IMG/VR virus record: IMGVR_UViG_3300013126_000209
Location: 1 to 26,099 of that record
From: a virus
Length of the DNA stretch: 26,099 bases
Direction: 5' to 3' (one strand)
In this document: positions 1-15,700 of the stretch, piece by piece
Layout of the letters: every line of letters begins with the position of its first letter
Position numbering within the stretch: the stretch's first letter is position 1
Position numbers and translations under genes: made by a program
The notes under the pieces: model-generated
What the model was told of the DNA's origin: nothing
Database searches by the model: none
The model's input: only the letters and a program-made list of their open reading frames with translations

Positions 1-1530
1 TACATCTCTAAATGCCCAACTTAGTCCTAAGATTAATCTATTGCGTTCACCTCTGCTTAAATTATCAAAGTCTAAGTCCTGTCCTAACTGTGTAATTTCC
101 ACAGTGAGATCATTCTGAAATAATACTTGGTGTGGCAAGCCCATACGATCCAAATAATAACTTAGCCTATTATTAAGATAGTTCAAGTTTTGATCAATAA
201 TCTTTTTACGAATAAAACTATCCTTGCTGGTCAACAATTTAATTAAAAATTCTTGATGATCTTTTATAGCAGTGAGTTCATTGACACGATCCCAATTGAT
301 TTCTTCCATGGCTGTATTGCGTAGTTCATCAATTTGTTCTTGATATGGATCGGTTTCTTCACTGCGTCGTAGTAGAGTATCTTCTAATGTTTTAAGATTG
401 TTTTGATGCTTTAGAGCCTCTTCCACAGTGTCATAAAAAGTTTCTGGCCTACCATTTATATCACCAATTTCATTTAATTCACTGATCACAAGTTCTAATT
501 TTTGTCCTACACTTTCCATATAGAGTGCTGATTCACTTACACTTTTTTGAGCAGCCTTTTTCATTTCTTTATGTTGGGCATCGTGAATTGGATTGTTACA
601 CTTGGGACAATTATGAGTTGCCAAGTCTTCTACTTCCTTAACAAACTTCTTCCAATTCTTTTCAGCCTGCATTAGAGCAGTCTCAAGAGTAGCACTTTCC
701 TTGTTCAAACTACTGATACGATTGCTTAGGTCAAGATAACTTTTAAGACGTTTATGCTGCCCTAATTCTTCCTCAATATCTATATTTTGTAGTTCCTCAA
801 TATTAGATGCCAATTTTTCAATGTCATCTTGTTGCTGTTTACTCCAAGCCCTCTGTTTTGATTGTAGGCTGAGAATACTTTGCTCAATACGATCATTACT
901 TTTCTTAGTGGCTTCAATATTGGCAGTTTCTTGCTGTATAGCTTCCTTACTTTGTCTAACTAATTCTTTCAGTGCATCACTTTTTTCACTGAGTAAGGTA
1001 ATGCCCAACAATTGCTCAATGATCATGCGTTGGTCAGCAGCCCTCATACTTAGAAAAGGCTCTGTGTAAGTGTTTAGAGCAACAATATTTTTAAACATAT
1101 CGTGCGTCATACCCAATAGATCATCCAGATCTTTTTGTGTTTCTCTTACATCACCTTGACTTTCATCAATAATTTCCTGTTCTTCACCATTGATATAGAA
1201 CTTAAAAACATTGGGCCTACGTCCACGTTCTACTTTATAGGTAGTGCCATTCTTTTCAAAGTTCAGCGTGACCAACATATTTTTATTATTGGTCTTGTTG
1301 ACGAGATTATCCTTCTTGATGTTGGTCAGTGCCTGTCCAAAAAGAGCGTAGCTTAGAGCATTAATGATGGTAGTTTTACCTGTACCATTACGACTGCCAC
1401 TGTCATCCCCACCTTGATCCAGATTCTCGCCCAAGACCAATGTCAGTTGTTCCTTACAAAAATCTACAGCTTGAGTATTATTACCCACGCTCATAAAATT
1501 TCTAACGGTTAAGTCTTTTATTTTTATCAT
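1..1530 (-). CDS. 46: Recombination endonuclease subunit gp46 (SbcC/Rad50-like ATPase), C-terminus cut by window edge
   Basis: This is the ATPase subunit of the phage Mre11/Rad50-type nuclease, which processes DNA ends for recombination-dependent replication and helps degrade host DNA. Reading down from the ATG at 1530-1528 gives 510 residues with no stop. Visible parts are the N-terminal strand MIKIKDLTVRNF; a Walker A ending RNGTGKTT (residues 47-54) with an acidic/Gly spacer after GEN (35-37); a long charged coiled-coil centre with a zinc-hook CPKC at 308-311; and the ABC signature LSRGER at 491-496. Walker B lies beyond the window; T4 gp46 is 560 residues, so roughly 50 are missing. The start overlaps the gp47 stop as ATGA and has little Shine-Dalgarno sequence of its own, so translation is probably coupled to gp47. 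The family call is very secure. Confidence 0.95.
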   Translation of the reverse strand, partial: MIKIKDLTVRNFMSVGNNTQAVDFCKEQLTLVLGENLDQGGDDSGSRNGTGKTTIINALSYALFGQALTNIKKDNLVNKTNNKNMLVTLNFEKNGTTYKVERGRRPNVFKFYINGEEQEIIDESQGDVRETQKDLDDLLGMTHDMFKNIVALNTYTEPFLSMRAADQRMIIEQLLGITLLSEKSDALKELVRQSKEAIQQETANIEATKKSNDRIEQSILSLQSKQRAWSKQQQDDIEKLASNIEELQNIDIEEELGQHKRLKSYLDLSNRISSLNKESATLETALMQAEKNWKKFVKEVEDLATHNCPKCNNPIHDAQHKEMKKAAQKSVSESALYMESVGQKLELVISELNEIGDINGRPETFYDTVEEALKHQNNLKTLEDTLLRRSEETDPYQEQIDELRNTAMEEINWDRVNELTAIKDHQEFLIKLLTSKDSFIRKKIIDQNLNYLNNRLSYYLDRMGLPHQVLFQNDLTVEITQLGQDLDFDNLSRGERNRLILGLSWAFRDV

Positions 1531-2537
1531 ATATTTTTATAGATATCCATAAGAAGTTTAATATTATACGTGTCACTTTCTAAACTTGTCAACTGATTTA
1601 TTACAATTTGGTCTAAACTTTCAAACGCTGTAATTTCTAAATCGCTATTAATTTCAACATCACGTTTTTCAGGAATCAGTGTAAGTTCACGAATGTCATA
1701 ATTTCCAATAAAATCTTCTTTGATCAAACTGCCCTCCTCATAACTAATAGGTATGTCCAATGTTACTCTAAGATGTTGTTTAGGTTTGATTAGTGTATCT
1801 TTTTCATCAATTAGCCTACTTAATGAGATAGTTCTAAAGGTAGGTTGACTGGGCCAAGCATAATACTCAGGCTCGCCACCCCACTCTAAGATCATCATAC
1901 CTCGGTCATCATCCCAAGCATCAGCATAGTTATGTGGAAAGGCATTGCCAATATAGTGCATATTCTGTTTATTTTGGCGTTTATGAAAATGACCACTCAG
2001 GCCAATTTCATATTTTTTAAATTGGCTCAACTGTATTTCACCATGATCAGGCATTTGTACCATGGCGTTCATAAAGAAACTGGGCAGTTCAAAGTGACCA
2101 AAGATATAACGTGCATCTTTCTTACCCACAGTTTTCCACTCATCACCTACGAGCCACGGACACATAGTAACTTCACCTTGTGTCATAGGTTTGTGTACAA
2201 CGGTGATACCTGGTATATATTTGCCAAACTCTACACTATGAATATCTCGTTTATCTTTATAGTAAAGATCATGATTTCCAGGAAAGAAGTAGAAATGATC
2301 AAATGCTTGGCCCAGTTTTTCTAAACTTCTAAGGCTATAATCCATAGTAACAATATTAAGACTGTTACGATTATGATGCCAGTCACCAAGAAAAAATCCA
2401 GTATCACAACCATTCTCTTTAGCAGTTTTAATAAACCAATCTACAAAATCCTCACAATCTTGATTATGTACTTGACTGTTAGACTTTAGACCAAAGTGTA
2501 TGTCTGTAAAAAATGCTGCCTTTTTAAACAAACTCAT
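1527..2537 (-). CDS. 47: Recombination endonuclease subunit gp47 (SbcD/Mre11-like nuclease)
   Basis: This is the metallophosphoesterase nuclease that pairs with gp46. At 336 residues it is about the length of T4 gp47. The Mre11 motifs appear in order: DIH (D12, H14), GDWHHNR at 51-57, GNHD at 87-90, GHFE at 147-150 and SGHFHKR at 181-187. These supply the Asp, His and Asn ligands of a two-metal centre. The C-terminal third has no motif I recognise and probably contacts gp46, as in the family. The ATG at 2537 overlaps the TGA of gp55 (ATGA) and follows a purine-rich AAAGAGAAGAAGA stretch. The TGA at 1529-1527 overlaps the gp46 start in the same way. The order gp55-gp47-gp46 with two such overlaps implies one mRNA and matched expression of the two nuclease subunits. 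Confidence 0.94.
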   Translation of the reverse strand: MSLFKKAAFFTDIHFGLKSNSQVHNQDCEDFVDWFIKTAKENGCDTGFFLGDWHHNRNSLNIVTMDYSLRSLEKLGQAFDHFYFFPGNHDLYYKDKRDIHSVEFGKYIPGITVVHKPMTQGEVTMCPWLVGDEWKTVGKKDARYIFGHFELPSFFMNAMVQMPDHGEIQLSQFKKYEIGLSGHFHKRQNKQNMHYIGNAFPHNYADAWDDDRGMMILEWGGEPEYYAWPSQPTFRTISLSRLIDEKDTLIKPKQHLRVTLDIPISYEEGSLIKEDFIGNYDIRELTLIPEKRDVEINSDLEITAFESLDQIVINQLTSLESDTYNIKLLMDIYKNI

Positions 2538-3355
2538 TCTTCTTCTCTTTCATACCTTTTCAAGCTGGCTGTGTGTTCAGCATTGCTAGTTCTAGTATAA
2601 CTAGGTGTCATATCATTCATTTCTAAAATGTCATCCCTAATATTTTGATTACGTTTTTCAATATTGATTATTCGAACGAAACTATTAGTAACAGCAGCAG
2701 TAAAATAAGCAAAAGGATTGTTCGATTTGGCTTCATTAAATTGTAGTCCTACCTGTGTAAGTTGTAGTATGGCCTGTGCTCTCATTTCATCATTGTAAGT
2801 ATAGCCACGCACATTGCCACGAGTAGCATAACGTTCACATAGTTTCATATACATACGAGCTAAGGTATTGGTTATTTGTCCATGATCCTTATTAAACTTG
2901 CCGCTTTTTACACCGCCCTTCCAATGACTTTTTCCAACGCAGATTAGTTCATCATTTTCATCAAACTTCCAATGTTGGAACGGGGGAAAGTTTACACGAT
3001 CGTGTCCATCTGCTTCAGTTTTTTGATTTTTCTTACGTGTTTTATTCACAGGAATATGTTCATAGGTCATAATCCTAAAAATCAAGTCAGTCTTAGCCAT
3101 TTTTTTATAATCAATTTCACATTCAGCCTGTTTTACCTTTTCACCTGCTTCTTTACGACGCTGATAATCCTGATCACCTAAACGTTTAGCACGATTTCGT
3201 TTTGCCTCAGCTACGGTTCTGATATTAATTTTATCCAAACTGGTCAAAATAATATCATATTGATGATATTCTGGCTTACTAAAACTGCTGTAAGTATTTT
3301 TACTTTTATGTATTTCTTCTAGTAAATCTTTGTTATTAAGATAATTTACACTCAT
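2534..3355 (-). CDS. 55: Late-transcription sigma factor gp55, with long internal insertion
   Basis: gp55 is the small sigma factor that directs host RNA polymerase to phage late promoters and, in T4, works with the sliding clamp. Two blocks resemble T4 gp55. One is the N-terminal NYLNNKDLLEEI (residues 4-15; T4 has YVNNKELLQAI). The other is about residues 184-240, including GYTYNDEMRAQAIL, NPFAYFTAAVTNSFVRII and EKR, which matches the sigma region 2-like block of T4. Between them lie about 120 residues, rich in Lys/Arg and aromatics, that make this protein 273 residues against 185 in T4. The T4 clamp-binding tail SLDFLYE is not obvious; the end here is SLKRYEREEE. The ATG at 3355 follows a clear TAGGAGAGGA ribosome site and a strong-looking sigma70-type promoter. 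It leads the gp55-gp47-gp46 operon. Confidence 0.88.
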   Translation of the reverse strand: MSVNYLNNKDLLEEIHKSKNTYSSFSKPEYHQYDIILTSLDKINIRTVAEAKRNRAKRLGDQDYQRRKEAGEKVKQAECEIDYKKMAKTDLIFRIMTYEHIPVNKTRKKNQKTEADGHDRVNFPPFQHWKFDENDELICVGKSHWKGGVKSGKFNKDHGQITNTLARMYMKLCERYATRGNVRGYTYNDEMRAQAILQLTQVGLQFNEAKSNNPFAYFTAAVTNSFVRIINIEKRNQNIRDDILEMNDMTPSYTRTSNAEHTASLKRYEREEE

Positions 3356-3360
3356 TGAGT

Positions 3361-3370
3361 AGTCCTCTCC
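3361..3370 (-). promoter_or_regulatory. Ribosome binding site of gp55
   Basis: The minus strand reads TTTAGGAGAGGACTACTCA just before the ATG at 3355. AGGAG and GAGG match the anti-Shine-Dalgarno closely at 6-10 bases spacing. This is the best ribosome site in the minus-strand operon and it decides the start. Confidence 0.65.
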
Positions 3371-3377
3371 TAAAGTT

Positions 3378-3406
3378 ATTATAAACTACGCACATTTAAA
3401 AGTCAA
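3378..3406 (-). promoter_or_regulatory. Sigma70-type promoter for the gp55-gp47-gp46 operon
   Basis: On the minus strand the -35 box TTGACT (3406-3401) and the -10 box TATAAT (3383-3378) are separated by exactly 17 bases. This is one mismatch from the bacterial vegetative consensus at optimal spacing. Transcription would begin near 3371, giving a leader of about 16 bases that contains the gp55 ribosome site. It should therefore be read by unmodified host polymerase, so that gp55 is made before late genes. Confidence 0.68.
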
Positions 3407-3413
3407 ATAAATA
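3406..3413 (+). promoter_or_regulatory. T4-like late promoter box upstream of the baseplate operon
   Basis: AATAAATA matches the T4 late consensus TATAAATA at 7 of 8 positions. Late promoters in this phage group need only this -10 element, recognised by gp55. Start of transcription would fall near 3419-3420, leaving a very short leader with the AAGGGG ribosome site (3420-3425) six bases before the ATG at 3432. Its first base overlaps the -35 box of the opposing promoter. AT-rich DNA produces such boxes by chance, but the position, directly before the first late gene, supports it. Confidence 0.5.
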
Positions 3414-3431
3414 TTTGCCAAGGGGAACAAT

Positions 3432-4457
3432 ATGCCAATACCAGGAATATCAAGCGTAATAGGTGCTGTAACAGGTGGTGTATCAGGCGCAATAAATGGT
3501 GCAATATCAGGTGCAGCTGGTAAATTAGCCGGTGCAGTTAACGGCGCTGCTGGTGGACTAGTCAGTGCTTTACGAAGTGTTAATATTCCATTAAATGCCG
3601 AAGCCTTTACACCAAAAGCAGACACTAAGCCACAACAAGGTGCAGGAGGTGATGCTGCTGACTGGCGTGTTAGATTAAGTTTTCCCAATGACGTAGCGGA
3701 GTTTGCAGGTAGTCCAGTATTTACTCCTTTAAAAGAAGCAGGTGGGCTAATTTTTCCTTATACTCCCACGATCAGTATTAATTCTACAGCAAATTATACA
3801 GAAAGCCCAGTTACACATCAAAATTATCAATTTGTCAGTTATGCTAATAGTAGAGTTAGTGAAATTAGTATCAGTGGTGATTTTTATGTTGAAGATGCTG
3901 TACAGGCTAGATATTGGTTGTCCTGTGTTCATTTTTTACGCAGTGTGACTAAAATGTTTGTGGGTTCTGATCAACGTGCAGGTAATCCACCAATTCTACT
4001 TTATTTTAATGCTTATGGTGATTTTGTTTTTAGAGATGTGCCTGTAGTAGTAAAAAGTTTTAGTATGACATTACCCAAAGAGGTTGATTATATAAGAACT
4101 AATATAAATGGTATAGGTGCAAGTGTAGGAAATTTTGGAGGCGGTGATCCTACTGGTTCAATTGGAGGTCTAGCCAATACTATGGCAGGGATAGCCAGTG
4201 CAGCAGGTGCCACACAAGCAGCAGCAGCTATGAAAAGTGTGGCAAATATAGCTAATGTACTTTCAGGTGGTGGTAAATCACCAAATAGTAATGCTAGTTC
4301 AGGCAGTGCTAATATCAATACTGAAAATGATAGCCATGTTCCTACTCAAAGTACATTAAACATGACACTATTACCAATTTATAGTAGAACAAGAGTTAGA
4401 AAATTTAGTTTAGAAACATTTGTAAATGGTGGATATGTAAAGGACGGATTTATCTAA
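3432..4457 (+). CDS. 48: Baseplate tail-tube cap/initiator protein, gp48-like
   Basis: This is probably the protein that caps the centre of the baseplate and starts tail-tube polymerisation, as T4 gp48 and gp54 do. It has 341 residues against 364 for T4 gp48. The N-terminus (residues 1-45) is an Ala/Gly-rich segment with repeated GAxxGA patterns. A compact conserved-looking core follows at about 77-230, with DWRVRLSFP, FPYTPTISI, NSRVSEISISGDF, YWLSCVHFLRSVTKMF and NAYGDFVFRDVPVV. A Gly/Ser/Ala linker (about 237-292) leads to a terminal LLPIYSRTRVRKFSLETF block. The core matches my memory of T4-like marine phage proteins labelled gp48, but exact assignment between gp48 and gp54 is uncertain. 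The ATG has AAGGGG six bases upstream. The stop shares one base with the start of gp53. Confidence 0.6.
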   Translation: MPIPGISSVIGAVTGGVSGAINGAISGAAGKLAGAVNGAAGGLVSALRSVNIPLNAEAFTPKADTKPQQGAGGDAADWRVRLSFPNDVAEFAGSPVFTPLKEAGGLIFPYTPTISINSTANYTESPVTHQNYQFVSYANSRVSEISISGDFYVEDAVQARYWLSCVHFLRSVTKMFVGSDQRAGNPPILLYFNAYGDFVFRDVPVVVKSFSMTLPKEVDYIRTNINGIGASVGNFGGGDPTGSIGGLANTMAGIASAAGATQAAAAMKSVANIANVLSGGGKSPNSNASSGSANINTENDSHVPTQSTLNMTLLPIYSRTRVRKFSLETFVNGGYVKDGFI

Positions 4458-4756
4458 TGGCCACATATACTTCAAATAGTCCATATTTCGATACTTTAAT
4501 AACAAATAATGCTTTAGATATTTTAAGTATTAGGCCAGTTAGTGCAGAGAGTGATGACTTCTTATATACTATAGAAAGTCAATATGCCCTAAGGCCTGAC
4601 TTATTAGCTTTTGATATCTATGGAACACCATCATTGTGGTGGGTCTTCATACAAAGAAATTTAAATGTGCTACAAGATCCTATATTTGATTTTGTTCCAG
4701 GTGTACAAATCTATTTGCCTAAAAAGAGTAGTCTAATAAGGGTACTAGGAATATAA
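4457..4756 (+). CDS. 53: Baseplate wedge subunit gp53
   Basis: gp53 bridges neighbouring baseplate wedges in T4. The family signature is plain at residues 43-66: YALRPDLLAFDIYGTPSLWW, the conserved arginine-proline-aspartate, tyrosine-glycine-threonine and double-tryptophan pattern. A LysM-like end follows with DPIFDFVPGVQIYLP at 74-88. At 99 residues it is about half of T4 gp53 (196), keeping the wedge core and lacking extra domains. The ATG overlaps the gp48-like stop by one base, and the next gene begins one base after the stop at 4756. A ribosome-site candidate AAAGGA lies 12 bases upstream, so coupling is likely. Confidence 0.88.
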   Translation: MATYTSNSPYFDTLITNNALDILSIRPVSAESDDFLYTIESQYALRPDLLAFDIYGTPSLWWVFIQRNLNVLQDPIFDFVPGVQIYLPKKSSLIRVLGI

Positions 4757-4757
4757 C

Positions 4758-7160
4758 ATGGCCTTATTGAACAATATTGTAAAAGGTGCAGTAGTAGCCG
4801 CAGCTGGTGCGGCAGTTGTCAAAACATTAGGTAACACCAATGTAGTAGGTGACTTAAAAAATGCTGCTCAAAATTTAGGTGGACAATTAGATAAACTAAA
4901 ACAACTGCCCAACGGTGATTTAAGCCAAGTAGTAAACAAAGTACCTGGACAAGTGATCAGTGATCTAGCACAAGGCATAGTAGGTGGTTTAGTTAATGTA
5001 CCGAAAACAAAAATATTAACTGGCTTAGCTGAAGAAGAAGTCATTGAATTAGATATAAAAGAAAGACCATTTGCTAATATATTACAAAATTACGCCAGTG
5101 TAAATTATAATTGGACCATGAGTGTATTAACGCCAAATCAAGTAAATTTTCCAGATGAAAGTTACAAAAAAGGCATATTAGGTGATATAATTTTTAAATC
5201 TGCTAGTGCAGATCCTGAAAATCGAATACCTTTACCTGACTATGGTAGTACAAGCAAAAAGAGTGTAGATGCCAACCCAGAAGGTAAGTTTGACTTTTTT
5301 ATAGATAATGTAAAAATAAATGGTGTAATGGGCTTAGACGTTCACACAAAGAATACTAATGCTGCTACAATGACTTTTGATATTTTTGAACCTTATAGTT
5401 TAGGATTATTTTTTCAAAGCTTAATGATGGCAGCAAAACGTAACGGGTATGAAAATTGGGTTATTATGCCTATTTTATTAACTTTAGAATTCAAAGGACA
5501 CTATAGCCCAGATACACATTTTATAGACTATTCAGTGGCTAAAAGACATTTTCCTTTAAAACTTACAAATATTCAAATGCGTGTAACTGAACGTGGAAGT
5601 CAATATGAAGTGCAAGCAGTGGCTTGGAATGATGAAGCATATAGTGATGCTATTAGTAGGATCAAAACGGATATGGATTTACAAGGTGCTACCGTTCAAG
5701 AAATGTTACAAACTGGTCCTTATAGTTTGCAATCAATATATAACAAAACATTACAAGAACTAGCAAAAAAGAATGACATCCCAACACCAGATCGAATATT
5801 AATATTATTTCCTAAAAGTACAAGTTCAGCTCGTAATACAGGTGGTGCTGGTGATGACAATAGTAGACCGAAAACAGCAACAACCTCAGGAGGGGGAGTG
5901 GGCGGCGACATATTTAAAACATTAGGTGTAGAATTAGGTGATGATGGTTATAATTATGTTCAAAAAGATAACGTAAATGATGTAGGTAAAGCTAGTATAG
6001 GATTTACAGATAGACGTAAAATACAAGGTATATTCGGTGAAGATAATGTGGTATGGGATGATGCAGCCCAAGTATTAAAACGTGGCAATATTAAAATATT
6101 AAAAGATAAAGGTACAGCACATTTTAAACAGAGTACAATAATACCTAATATTTTAAATGAAATAATTAGTAGCAGTAATTATGGTATAGAGGCACTTAAA
6201 CCTGGTAATATTTCTAAACCAAAAGGTATGATACAATGGTATAAAATAAGCAGCAAACAATATCTTTTAGAAACTACAAGCAATATACCAACTACTGGTC
6301 GTAATCCTGTGGTAACTGTATATAGTATAATACCATTTGAAGTGCATCACAGCAGATTTAGTAAAGTGGCTAAAAAACCTCTTGGCGTAGAATATATCAA
6401 AAAGAATGCTCTTAAGCACTATGATTACATTTACACTGGAAAAAACACAGATGTTATAGACTTTCAAATATTATTTCAGAATAGTTTCTATAAAGCCACA
6501 GCCAGTGACGGTAATATTAGTAACGAAGATGAACTACAAAAAAATAAAAATGCTACCGTATCTACCCCTGAAGTACCTAATGCACCACCTCCCAATCCTA
6601 GTAGTTCAAAAGGTGGTAATGATAAAACTAAACAACTTAATCAACAAGACCAAACTAAGCTTAAAAGATCCTTAGGTGGTATACAGCCTCAAGAACGAGG
6701 TACTTTAATAACTAAACAATTCATGGATGCCATATATAATGGCGGTGACATGATTAATGTAAACATGAAAATTTTAGGAGATCCTTTTTATTTAGGTGAT
6801 AGCGGATGGGGGAATTATACTGACACTGGAACTAGTAATAATGATATTAATAGTGATGGTGCTATAAATTATGAAAGAACTGAAATTTATATTAGTGTAG
6901 ATTTTAAAAATCCTACAGATATAAATGGACATGTGTACGATTTTCCTGGACCTAAAGCAGTTCAAGCAATAAGTGGTGTTTATAAAGTAAATTTAGTAGA
7001 GAGTACATTTAACAGAGGTCTGTTCAGTCAAACTTTACAAATGAACAGAATGCCTAACCAAGATATTGATGGTGCAGAAGAACCTACGATATTATTAGAA
7101 CAAAAAGATCCAGATAGTCCACGTGAAATACAGGAAACTGGTTTCAGTGATGTTTTATAG
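4758..7160 (+). CDS. Large baseplate hub candidate (800 residues), possible functional gp27 equivalent
   Basis: I do not recognise this protein with certainty. It sits directly before gp5, the spike that needs a trimeric hub partner (gp27 in T4, 391 residues), which makes a central hub role the best inference. The N-terminus is hydrophobic and Ala-rich (MALLNNIVKGAVVAAAGAAV). Residues about 170-310 contain paired beta-type segments such as FDFFIDNVKINGVMGLDVHT, FDIFEPYSLGLFFQSLM and YEVQAVAWNDEAYSD, a style typical of hub/tube-like proteins. Low-complexity linkers lie near 354-385 (Gly/Ser/Thr/Asp) and 605-632 (Pro/Ser/Lys). The C-terminal part (about 645-800) has VNMKILGDPFYLGDSGW and a final KVNLVESTFNRGLFSQTLQM block. 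An AGGA ribosome site is seven bases before the ATG. The coding call is certain; the hub role is inferred from position. Confidence 0.5.
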   Translation: MALLNNIVKGAVVAAAGAAVVKTLGNTNVVGDLKNAAQNLGGQLDKLKQLPNGDLSQVVNKVPGQVISDLAQGIVGGLVNVPKTKILTGLAEEEVIELDIKERPFANILQNYASVNYNWTMSVLTPNQVNFPDESYKKGILGDIIFKSASADPENRIPLPDYGSTSKKSVDANPEGKFDFFIDNVKINGVMGLDVHTKNTNAATMTFDIFEPYSLGLFFQSLMMAAKRNGYENWVIMPILLTLEFKGHYSPDTHFIDYSVAKRHFPLKLTNIQMRVTERGSQYEVQAVAWNDEAYSDAISRIKTDMDLQGATVQEMLQTGPYSLQSIYNKTLQELAKKNDIPTPDRILILFPKSTSSARNTGGAGDDNSRPKTATTSGGGVGGDIFKTLGVELGDDGYNYVQKDNVNDVGKASIGFTDRRKIQGIFGEDNVVWDDAAQVLKRGNIKILKDKGTAHFKQSTIIPNILNEIISSSNYGIEALKPGNISKPKGMIQWYKISSKQYLLETTSNIPTTGRNPVVTVYSIIPFEVHHSRFSKVAKKPLGVEYIKKNALKHYDYIYTGKNTDVIDFQILFQNSFYKATASDGNISNEDELQKNKNATVSTPEVPNAPPPNPSSSKGGNDKTKQLNQQDQTKLKRSLGGIQPQERGTLITKQFMDAIYNGGDMINVNMKILGDPFYLGDSGWGNYTDTGTSNNDINSDGAINYERTEIYISVDFKNPTDINGHVYDFPGPKAVQAISGVYKVNLVESTFNRGLFSQTLQMNRMPNQDIDGAEEPTILLEQKDPDSPREIQETGFSDVL

Positions 7161-7168
7161 GTAGAAAT

Positions 7169-8800
7169 ATGAGTGAAATGAATAGGTCTAGCCAAGAGGC
7201 AGACCCAGGAAGTAGAGAAAATGGAATGATACTGGCTCTAGTAGTCAGTCATTTAGATCCTGACTATATGGGTACTTTACAAGTAGAAAAACTAAGACAA
7301 GTTGGTAATGACCGCAAACGTACTGGACAATTAGCCACAGTTCGTTATATTAGCCCTTTTATGGGAGTCACTGGGGAAGAATTTAATAGCAAAGTAAATG
7401 AGTATGATGGTACACAGAAAAGTTATGGTTTTTGGGCTATACCACCTGATGTAGGAACCACTGTAGTATGTTTTTTCCTAGATGGTGATCCCACACACGG
7501 GTTTTATATAGGATGTTTACAAGACAAAAATATGAATTTTATGGTGCCAGGATACGCTGCCACTGAAATTCATGAAGATGGCATAGAAAAAAGAGTAGTA
7601 GTTGCAGAATATAATAAAAAAGCACAATTAAATATTACCAAAGATGCAACACAGATTAAAAAACCACAACATCCTTTTACAGAAATATATAGAGATCAAG
7701 GCACTTTAAAAGATGATATTAGAGGCATTACTACCAGCAGTGCCCGCAGAGAATGGCCTAGCTCAGTGTTTGGCGTTAGTACTCCCGGACCAGTGGATAA
7801 AGATGGCCCTAGGCATAAAATGGGCAAGCATGAATGGGAAATTACCAAATATCCAATTAGTAGATTAGGCGGTAGTAGTTTTGTTATGGATGATGGTGAT
7901 GATAAATTCCTACGCATTAAAAATGCCAGCGAAGGTCCACCTGATTATGCGGCTGTAGAAGATGGCGAACTTAATGGTGATAGAACATTATTACATAACG
8001 AATTAATAAGATTGCGTACACGTACTGGGCATCAAATACTTTTACATAATACTGAAGATTTAATTTATATAGGTAATGCTCGTGGCACAGCTTGGATAGA
8101 ATTAACCAGTGATGGTAAAATGGATATATTTTGTGCCGATAGTATTAATATTAGAACAAAAAAAGATTTTAATTTTTATGCAGACAGAGATTTTAATTTT
8201 GAGGCAGGTAGGAACTTTAATATTAAAGTAAAAGAAGAAATGCATACACAGATAGGTAAAGATAATATTTTAATCATTGACGAAAATCAAAAAATACATA
8301 TCAAACAAAATAAGGATGAAACTGTAGGTCAAGATAGTCTATATACAATTTTAGGCAACTATGATACTAATGCTACTGGTCATATCTATGAAACAAGTGG
8401 TCAAAATAATGAAACTAGATCAGGAACAGCTATTATTGAAACTGCTCCAGTTATACATATGAACGGCCCAGAAGCTGCAACTGCTAGTATTGCTGAAATA
8501 CCTAAAGAATTAAAAACTCATAAACTTCCTGATTTTACAGTACCAAATATCAAAGACAGTCCTATAGATTTAGTTACTATATTGAGACGAGTACCTACTC
8601 CAGAACCATATCCTCACCATGAAAGTTTAGAACCTAAACAGTTTAAACCAGTAACAAATGATGAATATCCTGGTTTAGACAGGGATGTCCATGGTAGATA
8701 TATAGACAGCAATACTCCAACAACAGATCTCAGACCCCCACCAAAATTTTGGAAAAAATATACTACCAAACACGATACATTTAAAAAGGTTAAAAAATGA
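7169..8800 (+). CDS. 5: Baseplate central spike gp5 (OB fold plus beta-helix, no lysozyme domain)
   Basis: This is the central spike that punctures the outer membrane on tail contraction. It has 543 residues. Residues about 18-130 form the gp5/VgrG-type OB fold: ILALVVSHLDPDYMGTLQVE, then YGFWAIPPDVGTTVVCFFLDGDPTHGFYIGC. After a variable stretch, residues about 275-430 show the repetitive beta-helix style, with RTRTGHQILLHNTEDLIYI, GTAWIELTSDGKMDIFCADS and short NF/DF repeats. T4 gp5 carries a muramidase between these two parts; here I see no catalytic Glu/Asp/Thr lysozyme pattern, so it looks non-enzymatic. The C-terminus is basic (KKYTTKHDTFKKVKK). The start is eight bases after the previous stop with only a weak TAGGTAG site; a second ATG three codons on is possible. 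The TGA overlaps the gp25 ATG. Confidence 0.85.
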   Translation: MSEMNRSSQEADPGSRENGMILALVVSHLDPDYMGTLQVEKLRQVGNDRKRTGQLATVRYISPFMGVTGEEFNSKVNEYDGTQKSYGFWAIPPDVGTTVVCFFLDGDPTHGFYIGCLQDKNMNFMVPGYAATEIHEDGIEKRVVVAEYNKKAQLNITKDATQIKKPQHPFTEIYRDQGTLKDDIRGITTSSARREWPSSVFGVSTPGPVDKDGPRHKMGKHEWEITKYPISRLGGSSFVMDDGDDKFLRIKNASEGPPDYAAVEDGELNGDRTLLHNELIRLRTRTGHQILLHNTEDLIYIGNARGTAWIELTSDGKMDIFCADSINIRTKKDFNFYADRDFNFEAGRNFNIKVKEEMHTQIGKDNILIIDENQKIHIKQNKDETVGQDSLYTILGNYDTNATGHIYETSGQNNETRSGTAIIETAPVIHMNGPEAATASIAEIPKELKTHKLPDFTVPNIKDSPIDLVTILRRVPTPEPYPHHESLEPKQFKPVTNDEYPGLDRDVHGRYIDSNTPTTDLRPPPKFWKKYTTKHDTFKKVKK

Positions 8801-9237
8801 GCCTAGAAAAACTATATCAAAACACTGTGGTAAAAGGTCCAAAACAATTGGACAGACCACCTTTACCACGAACTTATAGAGGATTTAGTACAGTAAGTCC
8901 TGATAGTGAAAATTTTACTCTATATGATTTTAGCCTAATAAAACAGGACTTATTGAATCATTTTCATATTAGACAAGGGGAGAAATTAAACGACCCAACA
9001 TTTGGCACTATTATTTGGGATATAATTTTTGAACCAATGACTGATGATATTAGAAGATTAGTGCTTGCAGATGTAGAAAAAATTATAAATTACGACCCAA
9101 GAATTAGGGCAGAAAGTGTAATTGTTAATTCATATAGTACAGGACTACAAATTGAATGTGAACTAACTTATCTACCATATAATATCAGCGAACGTTTACA
9201 ATTTAGATTTGATCAAAGCGCAGGATTGATAGGTTAA
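8797..9237 (+). CDS. 25: Baseplate wedge subunit gp25 (GPW/gp25 family)
   Basis: gp25 is the small wedge protein next to the tail tube that initiates the sheath. It is 146 residues long; T4 gp25 is 132. The family core is visible at residues 44-80: DFSLIKQDLLNHFHIRQGEK, then NDPTFGTIIWDIIFEP. The helical segment DDIRRLVLADVEKIINYDPR and closing beta strands (VIVNSYSTGLQIECELTY) follow. The first 40 residues are a less ordered extension with several prolines. The ATG overlaps the gp5 stop (ATGA) and has AAAAAGG upstream, so it is coupled to gp5. Its TAA lies inside a perfect inverted repeat. Confidence 0.94.
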   Translation: MSLEKLYQNTVVKGPKQLDRPPLPRTYRGFSTVSPDSENFTLYDFSLIKQDLLNHFHIRQGEKLNDPTFGTIIWDIIFEPMTDDIRRLVLADVEKIINYDPRIRAESVIVNSYSTGLQIECELTYLPYNISERLQFRFDQSAGLIG

Positions 9238-9255
9238 AATAGCACATTTTAACCT
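9231..9255 (+). repeat. Perfect 10-base inverted repeat over the gp25 stop codon
   Basis: Arms AGGTTAAAAT (9231-9240) and ATTTTAACCT (9246-9255) are exact reverse complements around the five-base loop AGCAC. The left arm contains the gp25 TAA. The stem is AT-rich and no run of T follows, so it is a poor intrinsic terminator. An RNA stability or processing hairpin between gp25 and gp6, or a binding site, is possible. Confidence 0.6.
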
Positions 9256-9257
9256 AA

Positions 9258-9265
9258 ACTAAATA
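9258..9265 (+). promoter_or_regulatory. Weak late-promoter-like box before gp6
   Basis: ACTAAATA matches TATAAATA at six of eight positions and contains the TAAATA core. It lies in the only gap of real size in the late operon (45 bases), 18 bases before the gp6 ATG and directly after the hairpin. An AAGGA ribosome site (9272-9276) follows, six bases from the ATG. It might boost gp6 and the giant gene, but an AT-rich chance match is possible. Confidence 0.33.
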
Positions 9266-9282
9266 TAGAATAAGGATAGGTC

Positions 9283-12200
9283 ATGTCATCCACCGATAGA
9301 CAAAATAGATTACTAGTAGCTGAAGATTGGAGAAGACTTTATCAAAGCTTCAAAAATGCTGATTTTGCCAGCTATGATTTTGAAAATTTACGTAGAGTAA
9401 TGATTAATTACCTACGTGAGAACTATCCTGAAGATTTTAACGATTATATTGAAAGCAGTGAATATATTGCCTTAATTGATATGATTGCTTTCTTAGGTCA
9501 AAGTTTTGCTTTTAGAGTTGATTTAAATGCTAGAGAAAACTTTTTAGAACTAGCAGAACGCAGAGAAAGCATTCTAAGACTAGCACGTACATTAAGTTAT
9601 AATAGTAAACGTAATAAAACTGCTAATGGGTTACTCAAATGGGATACAATAAGTACAACTGAGGATGTTATAGATAGTAATGGTAGAAATTTAAGTAATG
9701 TAGAAATTTTATGGAATGATCCCAGTAATGCTAATTGGTTAGATCAATTTATTAGAGTGGTTAACTCTGCTCTACCCATGACCAGTCAGTTTGGTACTCC
9801 AGAAAAAAGTAGTGAAGTATCTGATATTCCTACCCAACAATATAGGTTTCAAACAGTTAGTAATACTGTGCCTATCTACAGTTTTAATAAACTAGTAGAT
9901 GGTCGTAATATGAATTTTGAAGTAGTCAGTACTGGTATTGATGGTTCTAGTATAGTTGAAGAACCTCCCCTAGCAGCACGTAGATTAAGCTTTATCTATA
10001 GAGACGATGGTAGAGGAGCAGCCAGTAATACCACAGGTTTCTTTAGTCATTTTAGACAAGGTGGCCTAAACACTGGTAGTTTTACATTAACTCAGCCAAC
10101 TACAAATGAAAGTATAGATATTGATGCTACTAATATAAATGATACAGATTTATGGTTGTATAAACTAAATGCTAATGGTGCAGAAAGTGAATTTTGGCAG
10201 CGTGTTCCAAATTTTGAAGCAAATAATATAATTTACAATAGCTTAAAAAAGAATATAAAAAACATATACAATATTGTCACTAGAACAAATGATCGTGTTA
10301 GCCTAGTATTTGGTGATGGTGTTTTTGGTAATTTACCTGTAGGCACATTTAGAGTATATTATAGAGTAAGTAATGGCCTAAGTTATACAATAAATCCAAA
10401 AGATATGCGTAATATATCTATGGATTTGACCTATCTGAGCAATAAAGGACAATTAGAAATCCTAAGTTTATCTATGAGCTTACAGACTAGTGTAGCTAAT
10501 AGTAGTGAAACAGAGAGTGATAATTCAATTAAAGCCAATGCTCCAGCTACATATTATACTCAAAATAGAATGATAACTGCTGAGGACTATAATATTAGTC
10601 CTTTAAGTATAGATCAAGATGTATTAAAAATCAAAACTATTAATAGAACTAGTAGTGGAATTAGTAGGTATTTTGACTTAATTGATCCTACTGGAAAATA
10701 TAGTAGTACAAATCTTTTTAGTGATGACGGCGTAATTTATCAAGAAGAATATGAGGATAGTTTTAGGTTTAGTTATAGGAATAGAATAGATATTCAATCA
10801 ATTATTCTAAATCAAATAATTCCTTACTTAAAAACTATTAATATAAGAAATTATTACTATTACAAATTTGGTAGAAAAACTGTAACTAATGAAGCCAGTA
10901 CTCAGATAAGTTGGGTCAATAAAACTCAAATCACTAATTTATGTACAGGACATTTTAAAAATACACTGGGTGTTATTGAAGGGTATAATGTCAATACTAC
11001 TTTAAGGTATTTAGAGCCAGGTGCTATGTTAAAATTTATAGCACCTACAGGTAAAGTGTTTAATCGAACAAGAAATAATAGACTAGAAAACGAAACTAAT
11101 AACTTAAAAAATACAACAAAGTATATATGGGTAAAATTAATCAGTATTACTAACAACGGTTTAACTGAAACACTAGAAGATGGCACTGGAAGTATAAGCA
11201 TAAATGAAAAAATACCTACAGATGCTATACTAGAAGAAATTATACCAATTTGGAGAACTAGCTTAGATAGTAACACAATTACTACTATAAATGAATTAAT
11301 TTTTTCAAATAAACCATTTGGTTTACGCTATGATATAGAATTAAAAACTTGGCAAGTTATATTTGAAGTAAATCTTAATCTAAAAGACCCATTCAGTATA
11401 TCTAGATCAGGTGACATATCAAATCAAAAATTAGATAGTAGCTGGCTAATATCATTTACAACAGATACAGAATTTTACACAGTAAAATCTAGAAATACTA
11501 GATATATTTTTGAAAGTGATAAAAAGATTAGATTTTATTTTGATAAAACAAATAAAGTATATGACACAAAAACTAATACAGTAATCAAAGATAGAATCAG
11601 TATACTGGATATAAATTCAAAACCAAACAATGATGGTAGTCTAAACTACGATATAGAATGGGAAGTAACTAATGAGTTTATTGGATCAGACGGATACGTA
11701 GATACTAAAAAAATAGAAGTTACTTTTAAAGATACCAATGATGATGATATAGTAGATGATCCAGATATTTTTAATTTAATAGTAAGTCCAACATATGCAT
11801 CAGGTGCAGTGAATTTTAATAATTTTATTATATTACAAAAATTTGAAACAAGAACTGGACAGTATGATTATTTTTACACTGAAAATACTGGTAGTGATGG
11901 TAACGAACTAGTAACAGTGATACAAAACTTAAACTCTGCAAGTCAATCTTATTACATAGATGGAAAATATGTTTATGATTATGATCTTAGCACGTTATTT
12001 AGATATAATATTTTAACAACAAAATGGGAAGTTAGTTTAGATTATAAAGTTTTTCAAGGTCGTAGCAATTTAAAATTCCAATATGTACATAGTGCAGATT
12101 ATGAAGCAAGAATTGATCCAGGTCAAACTAATTTAATGGATCTTTATGTATTAACTAAACAATATGATATTAATTTTAGACTATGGTTGTTAGGTAGTAT

Positions 12201-12747
12201 TGATGATGAACCATTACCACCTAGTACAGATGAATTAAGTTTTATATTAAGTGAAGAATTAAATCAAATAAAGGCTATAAGTGATGAAGTGATTTATCAT
12301 CCAGTAAAGTATAAGGTACTTTTTGGATCTAAAGCTATACCTAGTCTACGTGCTAGTTTTAAAATTATAAAAAATCCAGAACAAATTATCAGTGATAATG
12401 ATATAAAATCAAGAGTTTTACAGGCTATGAATGAATTTTTTAGTTTAGATAATTGGGATTTTGGTGATAGTTTTTATTTTAGTGAATTAGTAGCCTATAT
12501 AATGAATAGGACTGCACCATTTTTAGCTAATATACTAATTGTTCCTAGGATGGAAAATTTGTCCTTTGGTAGTTTATTTGAAATAAAAGCAGAAACTGAT
12601 CAAATATTCATCAATGGTGCAACCAGTGAAGATTTAGAAGTAGTAGATAGTATTACATCTAGTATATTAAATGCTGATGGTAGTATAGAGCTATCAAGTA
12701 ATATTGTATCACAGCAGTATATTATTAGTAAAACAGGATTTAATTGA
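9283..12747 (+). CDS. 6: Baseplate wedge subunit gp6, enlarged (baseplate J-like)
   Basis: gp6 joins the wedges into the inner baseplate ring. Residues about 25-110 carry the gp6 N-terminal pattern, with YDFENLRRVMINYLRENYPE, SSEYIALIDMIAFLGQSFAF, NARENFLELAERRESILRLA and LSYNSKR. The baseplate-J signature follows: VFGDGVFGNLPVGTFRVYYR (about 342-361) and YYTQNRMITAEDYN (about 422-435). The C-terminal block from about 1024 (RASFKIIKNPEQIISDNDIK, then ELVAYIMNRTAPF) is the part used for ring dimers in the family. Length is 1154 residues against 660 in T4; the extra material, mostly about 445-1010, is beta-rich and Asn/Thr/Asp-rich. The start has AAGGA six bases upstream. The TGA shares its last base with the ATG of the next gene. 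Confidence 0.93.
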   Translation: MSSTDRQNRLLVAEDWRRLYQSFKNADFASYDFENLRRVMINYLRENYPEDFNDYIESSEYIALIDMIAFLGQSFAFRVDLNARENFLELAERRESILRLARTLSYNSKRNKTANGLLKWDTISTTEDVIDSNGRNLSNVEILWNDPSNANWLDQFIRVVNSALPMTSQFGTPEKSSEVSDIPTQQYRFQTVSNTVPIYSFNKLVDGRNMNFEVVSTGIDGSSIVEEPPLAARRLSFIYRDDGRGAASNTTGFFSHFRQGGLNTGSFTLTQPTTNESIDIDATNINDTDLWLYKLNANGAESEFWQRVPNFEANNIIYNSLKKNIKNIYNIVTRTNDRVSLVFGDGVFGNLPVGTFRVYYRVSNGLSYTINPKDMRNISMDLTYLSNKGQLEILSLSMSLQTSVANSSETESDNSIKANAPATYYTQNRMITAEDYNISPLSIDQDVLKIKTINRTSSGISRYFDLIDPTGKYSSTNLFSDDGVIYQEEYEDSFRFSYRNRIDIQSIILNQIIPYLKTINIRNYYYYKFGRKTVTNEASTQISWVNKTQITNLCTGHFKNTLGVIEGYNVNTTLRYLEPGAMLKFIAPTGKVFNRTRNNRLENETNNLKNTTKYIWVKLISITNNGLTETLEDGTGSISINEKIPTDAILEEIIPIWRTSLDSNTITTINELIFSNKPFGLRYDIELKTWQVIFEVNLNLKDPFSISRSGDISNQKLDSSWLISFTTDTEFYTVKSRNTRYIFESDKKIRFYFDKTNKVYDTKTNTVIKDRISILDINSKPNNDGSLNYDIEWEVTNEFIGSDGYVDTKKIEVTFKDTNDDDIVDDPDIFNLIVSPTYASGAVNFNNFIILQKFETRTGQYDYFYTENTGSDGNELVTVIQNLNSASQSYYIDGKYVYDYDLSTLFRYNILTTKWEVSLDYKVFQGRSNLKFQYVHSADYEARIDPGQTNLMDLYVLTKQYDINFRLWLLGSIDDEPLPPSTDELSFILSEELNQIKAISDEVIYHPVKYKVLFGSKAIPSLRASFKIIKNPEQIISDNDIKSRVLQAMNEFFSLDNWDFGDSFYFSELVAYIMNRTAPFLANILIVPRMENLSFGSLFEIKAETDQIFINGATSEDLEVVDSITSSILNADGSIELSSNIVSQQYIISKTGFN

Positions 12748-12749
12748 TG
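12735..12749 (+). promoter_or_regulatory. Ribosome site and TGATG stop-start overlap before the giant gene
   Basis: AGGA at 12735-12738 lies eight bases before the ATG at 12747. The gp6 TGA (12745-12747) overlaps that ATG by one base. Together these fix the start of the giant frame and suggest it is translated by ribosomes finishing gp6. Confidence 0.6.
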
Positions 12750-15700
12750 TCTGAGCAGAACGAATACCCGGTACCTTTAGATAAAGATCAAAAAAGAAAA
12801 GCATCAAGATTTCTACCTAAGTTTTATCGTACTGATGCTAACCAAAAGTTTCTAGCAGGTACTATTGATAATCTAATACAACGAGGTACTGCCCAACGTC
12901 TAAATGGTTTTATTGGAAGAAAAAATAGTAAATCATCTAAGGCCAGTGATATATTTTTAAGTGAAGTTAGTGATGATCGAGCAAACTATCAGTTAGAACC
13001 TTGTTTAATAGCTGAGGATAATTTAGGCAATACAACATTTTTTAAAGATTATATTGATTATATCAATACTATAGACGTATTAGGTGGTATAAACAATAAT
13101 CATGAAAGACTAAATCAACAAGAGATCTATAGTTGGGATCCTCACATAAATTGGGATAAATTTGTCAACTATTTACAATACTATTGGTTACCATATGGGC
13201 CTGATACTGTTCCTATTAGTGGTACAAAAACATTAGATATTATTAGTACATATAATATAGAACTAGTTGACGAAGGTGATAATTTTGCTTATTTGTTCAC
13301 TCCAGACGCATTAACTAGAAATCCTGACCTACGCCTGTACAGAGGTGAAACATATAGGTTTGAAATCAATGTACCAGAACATCCCTTATCAATAAGAACT
13401 AATAGAACTGCCAGTCGAACACCTGAATTTAAAGGTAGTCAAAGTTTTAATTATACCCAACACGGTGTTAATAACTTTATTGTAGAAATTTTAAATAACA
13501 ATGATGATATAAACACATTATTAAGCGAAGTTTATATTAATGGTGAAAAAGTTGAACAAAATAAATTTACTTTTTATCTGAATGAAGATAAAAAGAATGT
13601 ATTATTATTAGAAAACAACATAGAAGAAAATGATATAGTAATATTAGATTTTTTTATTCTAAAAGATAATGACGAGTTTAGATATCTAGACGGTATAAAA
13701 ATATTTGATCGTATTAATGATAAGCTTGTACCCAGTAAAAATTTTAATATTAAAAATGGTGTACTAGAATTCACAGTCAGTGTTAATGCACCTGATATAT
13801 TGTACTATGTTAGTGATGATAATCCAGATACATCAGGAATGATTAAGATTTTTGATATTGAAGAAAATACTAGTATTGATGTAGAGAGTGAAGTTATAGG
13901 TAAAAAAAGTTACACATCAAATGGTGTTACACTATCAAATGGTATGAAAATAAAATTTAGAGGATTAGTTACACCAAAATTTTATAGAGATAAAGAGTTT
14001 TATGTTGAAGGTGTAGGTGAAAGTATAATGTTAGTTGATGTAGCCACACTGGAAGTAGTTAATGATATAGCATACAATGTAGATGTCAACTTTGATAGTA
14101 ATGGATTTGATCAGCTAGCCTTTAATAATATAAATTATGCAGCATTAGATAAAGATTATATTCTAATTAATAGATCTAGTCTTGATCGTAATCCTTGGAG
14201 TAGATATAATCGATGGTTTCATAAAGAAGTTATTGAACAAACTGCTCGTGCATTAGGAAAATTAGCAGTTTTTGATCAGGATAAAAGAGCTAAGAGACCA
14301 ATTATAGAATTTAATCCAAACATAAGATTGTTTAATTTTGGTAATCACAGTAAAGCAAATATTGATTTATTAGATGATTTTACTAAGGATGTGTTTAGTA
14401 TTGTTGAAGGAGCTTTAGGGTATATCATTGATGGTGTAGAGTTAGTCAATGGACATAGAGTAATATTCACTGCTGACACTGATCCTAGGGTAAAAAATAA
14501 AGTATTTCGTGTTGAATTTTTAGATATATTTGATGAGGATTTACAACGAACTTATAGAAGAATACATTTGGCTGAAGAACCAGATACTGAACCTGAATTA
14601 GATCAAACTGTATTAGTATTGGCTGGTAACATATTAGGTGGACAGATGTTTTGGTTCAATGGATCTACTTGGAAATTAGGTCAATATAAAAGCGGTTTGA
14701 ATCAGTGTCCATTATATGATATATTTGATGAAGAAAAAGTTAGCCTAAGTAATTTAAGCAAATATGAAGGTAGTACATTTAAAGGAAATAAACTATTTTC
14801 TTATAAAATAGGCAATGCCAGCATTGATAGTGAACTAGGATTCAGTTTAACTTATAGAAATATTAATAATATTGGCGATATTGTTTTTGATTTTAATCTA
14901 ACCAGTGAAGATTTTAAATATAAAGATGGTACAAAAATTATTAGTGACATATTGTCAAACAAATACTTAGAACACTATACTCCACAACAGGAAAAAAGAT
15001 TAGTTAATGGATGGATAAAAAATAATCTAGCAAATGTTCAACCTATTGTTAGAATTTATAAACAAGAATATAAAGTGCAAAATGATATAAAATCATTAGT
15101 TCTTAATGATTTTGCATTAGACATATTTGATGATTATAATGATTTAGATGATTTAAGAGTAAAAGTTTATATTAACGATAAAAGATTAGACGAAAGCCAA
15201 TATGAAATATATAATGGAGTAATATATAAACATGTCGGATTACAGAATGATATTGATATAAACGATATTGTTACTATAAAATGCTATACTAAAAAGCCAA
15301 AAAATTCTATAGGATATTATGAATTCCCAGTAAACTTTCAAAATAATCCTCTAAATGAAAACATTGAAACATTTACACTAGGTGAAGTCATAGATCATGT
15401 TGACAGTATAGTTGATAATGTGGATAATTTTGTAGGAATTTACCCTGGATCAAGTAACCTAAGAGATATAGGCCAGTTAAGTACTAAGGGGTTAAAGTTT
15501 TTACAGCATAGTGGTAGTCTTAACCTAGCACTATATCATCTTACCGATAAAAATGCCAATATCATAAAAGCATTAGAATCTGGTATGAATGATTATTCAA
15601 AGTTTAAAAAGAGTATAATTTTTAATAGTGAATATTTAGAAGAAGGACTAACACCTAAACAAGCACTTGATCAATTGTTAAAAAAGATCAATGAAAATAA

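Follow-up and report, generated by a model that had tools for sequence, protein, structure and literature searches.

How are the start signals of a late sigma factor gene and of the virion operon facing away from it accommodated in 76 nt, and could their arrangement pass transcription from one gene set to the other? The question arises at one junction in the window, the 26,099-nt stretch analysed here (positions 1 to 26,099 of IMG/VR virus record IMGVR_UViG_3300013126_000209), where a gene for a gp55-like protein and an operon of virion genes diverge. The features on which the analysis draws are the following, with coordinates in the window.

1..1530, minus strand: following ORF to the left, not closed within the window, gp46-like by the gene order of relatives only
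1527..2537, minus strand: gp47-like SbcD nuclease subunit, in the same leftward operon as gp55
2534..3355, minus strand: gp55-like late sigma factor, 273 aa (phrog_12791, phrog_234), first ATG at 3355
3356..3431, no strand: divergent intergenic region of 76 nt with both promoters inside (sequence and ORF list)
3364..3371, minus strand: Shine-Dalgarno-like AGGAGAGG of gp55 (sequence)
3378..3383, minus strand: −10 hexamer TATAAT of the gp55 promoter, 17-nt spacer (columns 110–115 of 115 in representatives)
3401..3406, minus strand: −35 hexamer TTGACT of the gp55 promoter (TTGA 115/115, C 114/115 in representatives)
3406..3413, plus strand: late box AATAAATA, core TAAATA at 3408–3413, the −10-like element of a predicted late promoter
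3420..3427, plus strand: Shine-Dalgarno-like AAGGGGAA of the right gene (sequence)
3432..4457, plus strand: virion structural gene, first of the rightward operon (phrog_12050, E 6.6e-45)
4457..12747, plus strand: remaining rightward operon (gp53-like, virion protein, gp5-like, gp25-like, gp6-like)
9258..9265, plus strand: second late box ACTAAATA, 17 nt ahead of the gp6-like start

The left gene encodes a late sigma factor (phrog_12791, E 3.7e-74; phrog_234, E 1.3e-23), and a profile of its family retrieves T4 gp55 from the PDB (7d7c chain F, E 1.1e-9, residues 144–235). About 140 residues precede the T4-gp55-matching part in the jumbo-phage protein. The AlphaFold model of the window's gp55 has a mean pLDDT of 78.8 and is weak in the sigma domain, and a Foldseek search of this model against the PDB returned no match at E 0.001 or better. 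The jumbo-phage protein thus differs from T4 gp55 in that it matches in residues 144–235 only and carries a long N-terminal part for which Foldseek finds no counterpart. The rightward operon includes gp53-, gp5-, gp25- and gp6-like baseplate genes. An inverted repeat, GGTTAAAATAGCACATTTTAACC, occupies 9232–9254, where the gp25-like gene ends, shortly ahead of the gp6 late box. Directly after the gp6-like gene, an ORF of at least 4452 aa (12744–26099, plus strand), open at the window end, specifies an unusually large protein and matches the virion structural family phrog_10938.

The first-pass annotation had placed a sigma70-type promoter, TTGACT-17-TATAAT, leftward into gp55, and a rightward late box, AATAAATA, sharing a base with its −35 hexamer. 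Both assignments hold on inspection. The hexamers lie at 3406–3401 and 3383–3378 on the minus strand, with 11 of 12 matches to the sigma70 consensus and a spacer of 17, and AATAAATA lies on the sense strand, 18 nt ahead of the ATG at 3432 of the virion gene, with exactly one base, 3406, in common with TTGACT. From the position of the −10 hexamer, gp55 transcription is predicted to start near 3371. According to the late-promoter passages of PMC2988020 and PMC7892883, a T4 late promoter is an 8-bp −10-like box without a −35 element, and in the former the TATA box lies about one turn upstream of the start; by this rule, the late transcript of the window would start near 3419. The window's late box has the same form, an 8-bp −10-like box without a −35, and the T4 reader of such boxes is a homologue of the window's left gene. 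In the T4 site collection given in PMC2988020, AATAAATA is the commonest natural late-box variant, with A at −13 (9 of 50 sites). The same source gives a/gC at −13/−12 as the late-box consensus of Aeh1, a form that the window's second late box, ACTAAATA, also carries.

In the window alone, neither box stands out: TATAAATA with at most one mismatch occurs 145 times versus 172.3 in shuffles, which is no enrichment, and sigma70-like matches in positions 1–8000 number 46 versus 33.2 (sd 6.0) in shuffles. A single sigma70 match in this range reaches 12/12: TTGACA-18-TATAAT at 1592–1563 on the minus strand, inside gp47 and ahead of the next leftward gene. It was considered as an additional early promoter. 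Among 12 relatives, ten could be judged (L020 yielded no ORF, and the 583-aa ORF taken for L062 is probably not gp47); nine of the ten lack a 5+5 match around the end of gp47, and the tenth, L005, has one with a 16-nt spacer. The match at 1592–1563 is probably due to chance.

To assess conservation, viral contigs were searched with protein sequence only, once with the window's gp55 and once with a more distant gp55, and the best 80 loci of each search were kept. Of these 160 gp55 loci, four (L052, L074, L387 and L397) lack upstream sequence, leaving 156. The first-pass annotation had proposed looking for the late box in relatives, and the comparison bears it out, since both boxes and their register are kept in 155 of the 156 loci. 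Specifically, 152 loci have TATTTA (the late-box core read on the gp55 strand), 1 nt, TTGA(C/T), a 17-nt spacer and a TATAAT-like −10; three (L064, L075 and L076) have 0 nt between the boxes; and one, L413, lacks the composite. The spacer is 17 nt in all 155 loci with the composite, which comprise 129 distinct 80-nt upstream strings.

For column-wise comparison we used 118 representatives with less than 88% gp55 nucleotide identity. They were drawn from composite-bearing loci and so do not include L413; the unbiased conservation count is 155/156. Fourfold-degenerate sites of the representatives are near saturation (identity 0.38 versus 0.33 by chance), and in the 115 representatives of the 1-nt form TATTTA and TTGA are invariant (115/115 each), C follows in 114/115, and the −10 columns are kept in 110–115. 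A chance match of the box pair is ruled out by this conservation, that is, by 155/156 loci and by invariant boxes at saturated fourfold sites. Within the spacer, TA stands at −17/−16 in 112 of 115 representatives. We considered the conserved spacer as an extra operator and set this aside: of 36 other early promoters whose spacer has 17 nt, 15 share the TA, which may thus be common to promoters in general. That account does not extend to the A at column 18, invariant at the gp55 junction across the 115.

Conservation of both boxes leaves the question of whether their contact matters. Two independent promoters may simply have been packed together by genome compaction, their overlap having no regulatory role. 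We hold this to be the main rival explanation, if a doubtful one. The intergenic region has just 76 nt, six large contigs of relatives are 92–96% coding, and promoters could be crowded together by the shortness of intergenic regions alone. Furthermore, T4 late promoters show no −35 conservation in the late-promoter passages of PMC2988020 and PMC7892883, and since a promoter of this type does without a −35 element, another promoter can have its −35 in the sequence upstream of the late box. Against packing alone stands the behaviour of the gap between the boxes. Leaders are of variable length, 17–60 nt from the −10 to the gp55 start (117 of 118 representatives with an assigned start) and 11–27 nt from the late box to the right start (112 of 118). 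On the gp55 tree of the 118 composite-bearing representatives, hence without L413, the gp55 leader changes at least 68 times and the right leader at least 62 times, as against at least 2 changes of the gap. Even so, indels at the joint of the boxes may harm either box more than leader indels would. A gap that stays fixed while the leaders change argues against compaction as the explanation for these predicted promoters, short of proof.

Other junctions in the same contigs point in both directions. The six large contigs contain 58 divergent junctions of 20–400 nt. All six contigs have a gap of 1 at the gp55 junction; eight other divergent junctions carry both box kinds, at distances from −14 to 31. 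That several junctions bring the two kinds together at varied distances favours mere packing, and that none of them has the register of the gp55 junction tells against it. One divergent, early/late-looking junction of contig G001 (L207–L225; about 318629–318725) lies between two small ORFs and has AATAAATA at a distance of 5 nt from TTGACA. The predicted promoters of the gp55 junction, for their part, overlap in a conserved, fixed register. Between the boxes stands G in 81 representatives, T in 34 and no base in 3; A and C never occur there, and this position changed at least 12 times. C precedes TAAATA in 81 of 118 representatives at the gp55 junction and is rarer elsewhere (16 of 132); its frequency is consistent with a trade-off between the two boxes or with a late promoter of lower strength.

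A different reading denies that TATTTA is a late box at all: it would be an UP-like part of the gp55 promoter, and the right operon would be driven from elsewhere. TATTTA is indeed A/T-rich and directly upstream of the −35. In the six contigs, TAAATA stands 14–50 nt ahead of starts 97 times in sense and 34 times in antisense orientation (418 upstream regions). When ten of the 12 listed late-box genes of contig G006 were scanned (a 3168-aa gene and the junction gene were left out), six of the ten were virion genes, namely tail sheath, two tail fibres, head-tail adaptor, baseplate hub and baseplate wedge; the others were one 2OG oxygenase and three without known function. The gp6-like genes of G006 and G004 have ATAAATA 18 nt ahead of their starts. 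Sigma70-type TTGAC..TATAAT promoters number 55 in the six contigs, and ten genes behind such promoters in G001 comprise seven with named non-virion functions (dNMP kinase, HNH endonuclease, ATPase, protease, clamp loader, RNA-binding protein and RNA ligase), three unknown and no virion gene. In these small sets from related contigs, the sigma70-type class of the left promoter precedes genes of DNA and RNA metabolism and the late-type class of the right box precedes tail, baseplate and connector genes, in agreement with the types originally assigned to the two promoters. TATTTA does not belong to the early promoter class, being found 1 nt before the −35 in 0 of 50 other early promoters and within 12 nt of it in one of the 50 (G001 gene 336). 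That absence argues against an UP-like part, as does the position of the same box 14–50 nt ahead of many genes, including six of the ten tested virion genes and the window's gp6. Moreover, TATTTA lies 11–27 nt ahead of the right start codon in all 112 representatives with an assigned start, and it stays in place in L413, where the gp55 promoter has moved. We regard the UP-like reading as highly improbable. The predicted identities of the two promoters and their overlap are well supported.

The composite is largely specific to gp55. A DNA-only scan of viral contigs for TATTTA-K-TTGAC-N18-TATAAT retrieved at least 120 stretches, of which 80 loci were examined. Sixty-seven of the 80 are gp55 junctions: 63 lie directly ahead of a gp55 match, and four more (L114, L151, L154 and L164) combine the right-hand homologue with the beginning of a gp55-like frame that is cut by the contig end or was missed by tblastn. 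The remaining 13 matches are located elsewhere; two of them, L130 and L144, place a composite-like pattern directly ahead of what looks like a tRNA gene. Among 11 records, the composite occurs once per record in nine and is absent from two (G004 and G007, which have one-base variants), and the reversed pattern occurs in none of the 11.

Two loci show variations. In L413, TATTTA is kept in place, both hexamers (−35 and −10) of the original gp55 promoter have decayed, and TTGACT-16-TATAAT has arisen about 45–60 nt nearer gp55 (L413 region 1240–1500). A TAAATA in this region of L413 now faces gp55. Behind its composite, L094 carries a further gp55 promoter in tandem, similar to TTGACA-18-TATAAT. 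According to these two loci, the late box is retained for its own sake and the boxes need not touch, and the separability of the pair in L413 favours independent packing.

Deeper relatives extend this picture. The order gp46/gp47 and gp55 leftward, with a divergent operon to the right, is found in PA5oct, PBECO4, Serratia BF and RaK2, the RaK2 genes right of gp55 being annotated as hypothetical. Atu_ph07 and Phosso have the same order, except that a nucleotidyltransferase-like gene separates gp55 from the virion genes, and Atu_ph07 has an exact TATTTAGTTGACA with a poor −10. More distant jumbo phages thus keep the divergent order, and box spacing differs. By regular expression, with L317 and L335 not included, the late box ends 24 nt before the −10 in the window's clade (23 in three loci) and 27 (2 loci), 28 (11) or 29 nt (4) before it in 17 loci of the 121Q/BF type, whose −35 is mostly TGRAACG- or TGGGACA-like. 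Among 47 loci of PA5oct-like phages, 30 have exactly 36 nt between the late box and TTGAC; the rest have other distances (28–72 nt) or lack one box by pattern, and PA5oct itself has 23 nt between the boxes. Fourfold sites are near saturation in 23 representatives of the 36-nt group too (0.39 versus 0.32 by chance), and a distance held in 30 of 47 loci at such saturation is a further point against packing, one that conserved UP-like bits may explain. Conserved ATAAA, TTTTAT and GAAA bits indeed lie in the 36-nt stretch between late box and −35 (L270–L315), and we take them to resemble an UP element. The motif of this group, with at most one mismatch, has five sites in four contigs, four of them at the gp55 junction. 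L413 and the 36-nt group together show that touching boxes are not strictly required.

What would the overlap do? RNA polymerase covers about −55 to +20 in its sigma70 form and about −40 to +20 in its gp55 form. The predicted footprints of the two polymerases overlap over roughly 3379–3426, so simultaneous binding should be impossible; mutual exclusion would follow from geometry, that is, from the box distance and these ordinary footprints. Early in infection, host sigma70 polymerase would use the strong left promoter to transcribe gp55 and then gp47/gp46 behind it. Later, gp55-polymerase, needing only the −10-like box, would open the T4-type promoter of the baseplate operon, and one DNA copy would serve one polymerase at a time. 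As gp55 rises, gp55-polymerase at the right promoter would displace initiation at the gp55 gene and limit gp55 synthesis. Between composite and gp55 the window has no sense TAAATA from which late transcription could make up for the early gp55 transcription lost. We infer that gp55 reads the late box, that transcription starts at the predicted sites, and that occupancy is exclusive. For T4, PMC2988020 states that initial binding of gp55-polymerase is not site-specific and that only the open complex is.

The self-shutting switch that the first-pass annotation proposed is supported in part: it is plausible, and its parts differ in strength. That the divergent, overlapping promoter pair works as an early-to-late handover at gp55 is, on balance, the reading we favour from the sequence comparison. 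Negative feedback of gp55 on its own promoter, which we infer from the same geometry, seems to us just short of an even prospect. More tentative is the full proposal that the 36-bp composite TATTTA-K-TTGAC-N18-TATAAT is one autorepressing unit by which gp55-polymerase would open the virion operon and close the gp55 gene, per DNA copy and without a repressor, its register being selected and defining a large clade of T4-like jumbo phages. The logic could also run the other way: early host polymerase on the gp55 promoter would mainly silence the virion operon until sigma70 transcription fades, and self-repression of gp55 would be unimportant. The same geometry supports this, as do the near-consensus gp55 promoter (11/12) and the frequent C form of the late box there. 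We nevertheless think it unlikely as the main function, because late promoters need gp55 to be made first, which limits premature late transcription anyway. Against a handover at gp55, host promoters may be turned off in some other way; AsiA models gave no match in eight records, with controls equally silent. T4-type late promoters have gp33 and the sliding clamp gp45 as co-factors, and the gp45 model PF02916 matched 0 of 8 records, but also 0 of 14 controls.

Known systems offer partial parallels. Lambda PRM and PR are overlapping divergent promoters with mutually exclusive polymerase binding. Like them, the junction sets promoters of antagonistic programmes back to back on common DNA; unlike them, the predicted exclusion is between two sigma forms of polymerase, one sigma being encoded at the junction, and no separate repressor is needed. 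In the T4-like S-SM2 (cyanophage), Mosig (pelagiphage) and Melnitz-2, unlike the window, gp55 is not divergent from a baseplate or virion operon. In CBB and GAP32, RpoD-like, TGAAACG/TATA and ATAAATA promoter classes have been predicted, with a TGAAACG/TATA promoter ahead of the gp55-like CBB_244 and ATAAATA ahead of structural genes (promoter section of PMC5259590). The window's relatives resemble them in having separate promoter classes with the ATAAATA class ahead of structural genes, and the −35 class of the 121Q/BF type is the one predicted there ahead of CBB gp55. The promoter section of PMC5259590 mentions neither overlap nor divergence at gp55. A literature search, whose coverage left out most subscription journals, found no description of this overlap of gp55 promoter and late box.

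The conserved arrangement suggests, without proof, an early-to-late handover built into the junction. The arrangement is widespread, with at least 80 loci from each protein search and at least 120 stretches from the DNA scan, and the composite provides a DNA signature for gp55 junctions of these uncultivated phages. The junction also offers a clean test of the handover from host to late transcription in jumbo phages with T4-type late transcription. If the feedback is true, it would be a very small early-to-late timer, in which a sigma factor regulates itself by promoter competition instead of a repressor.
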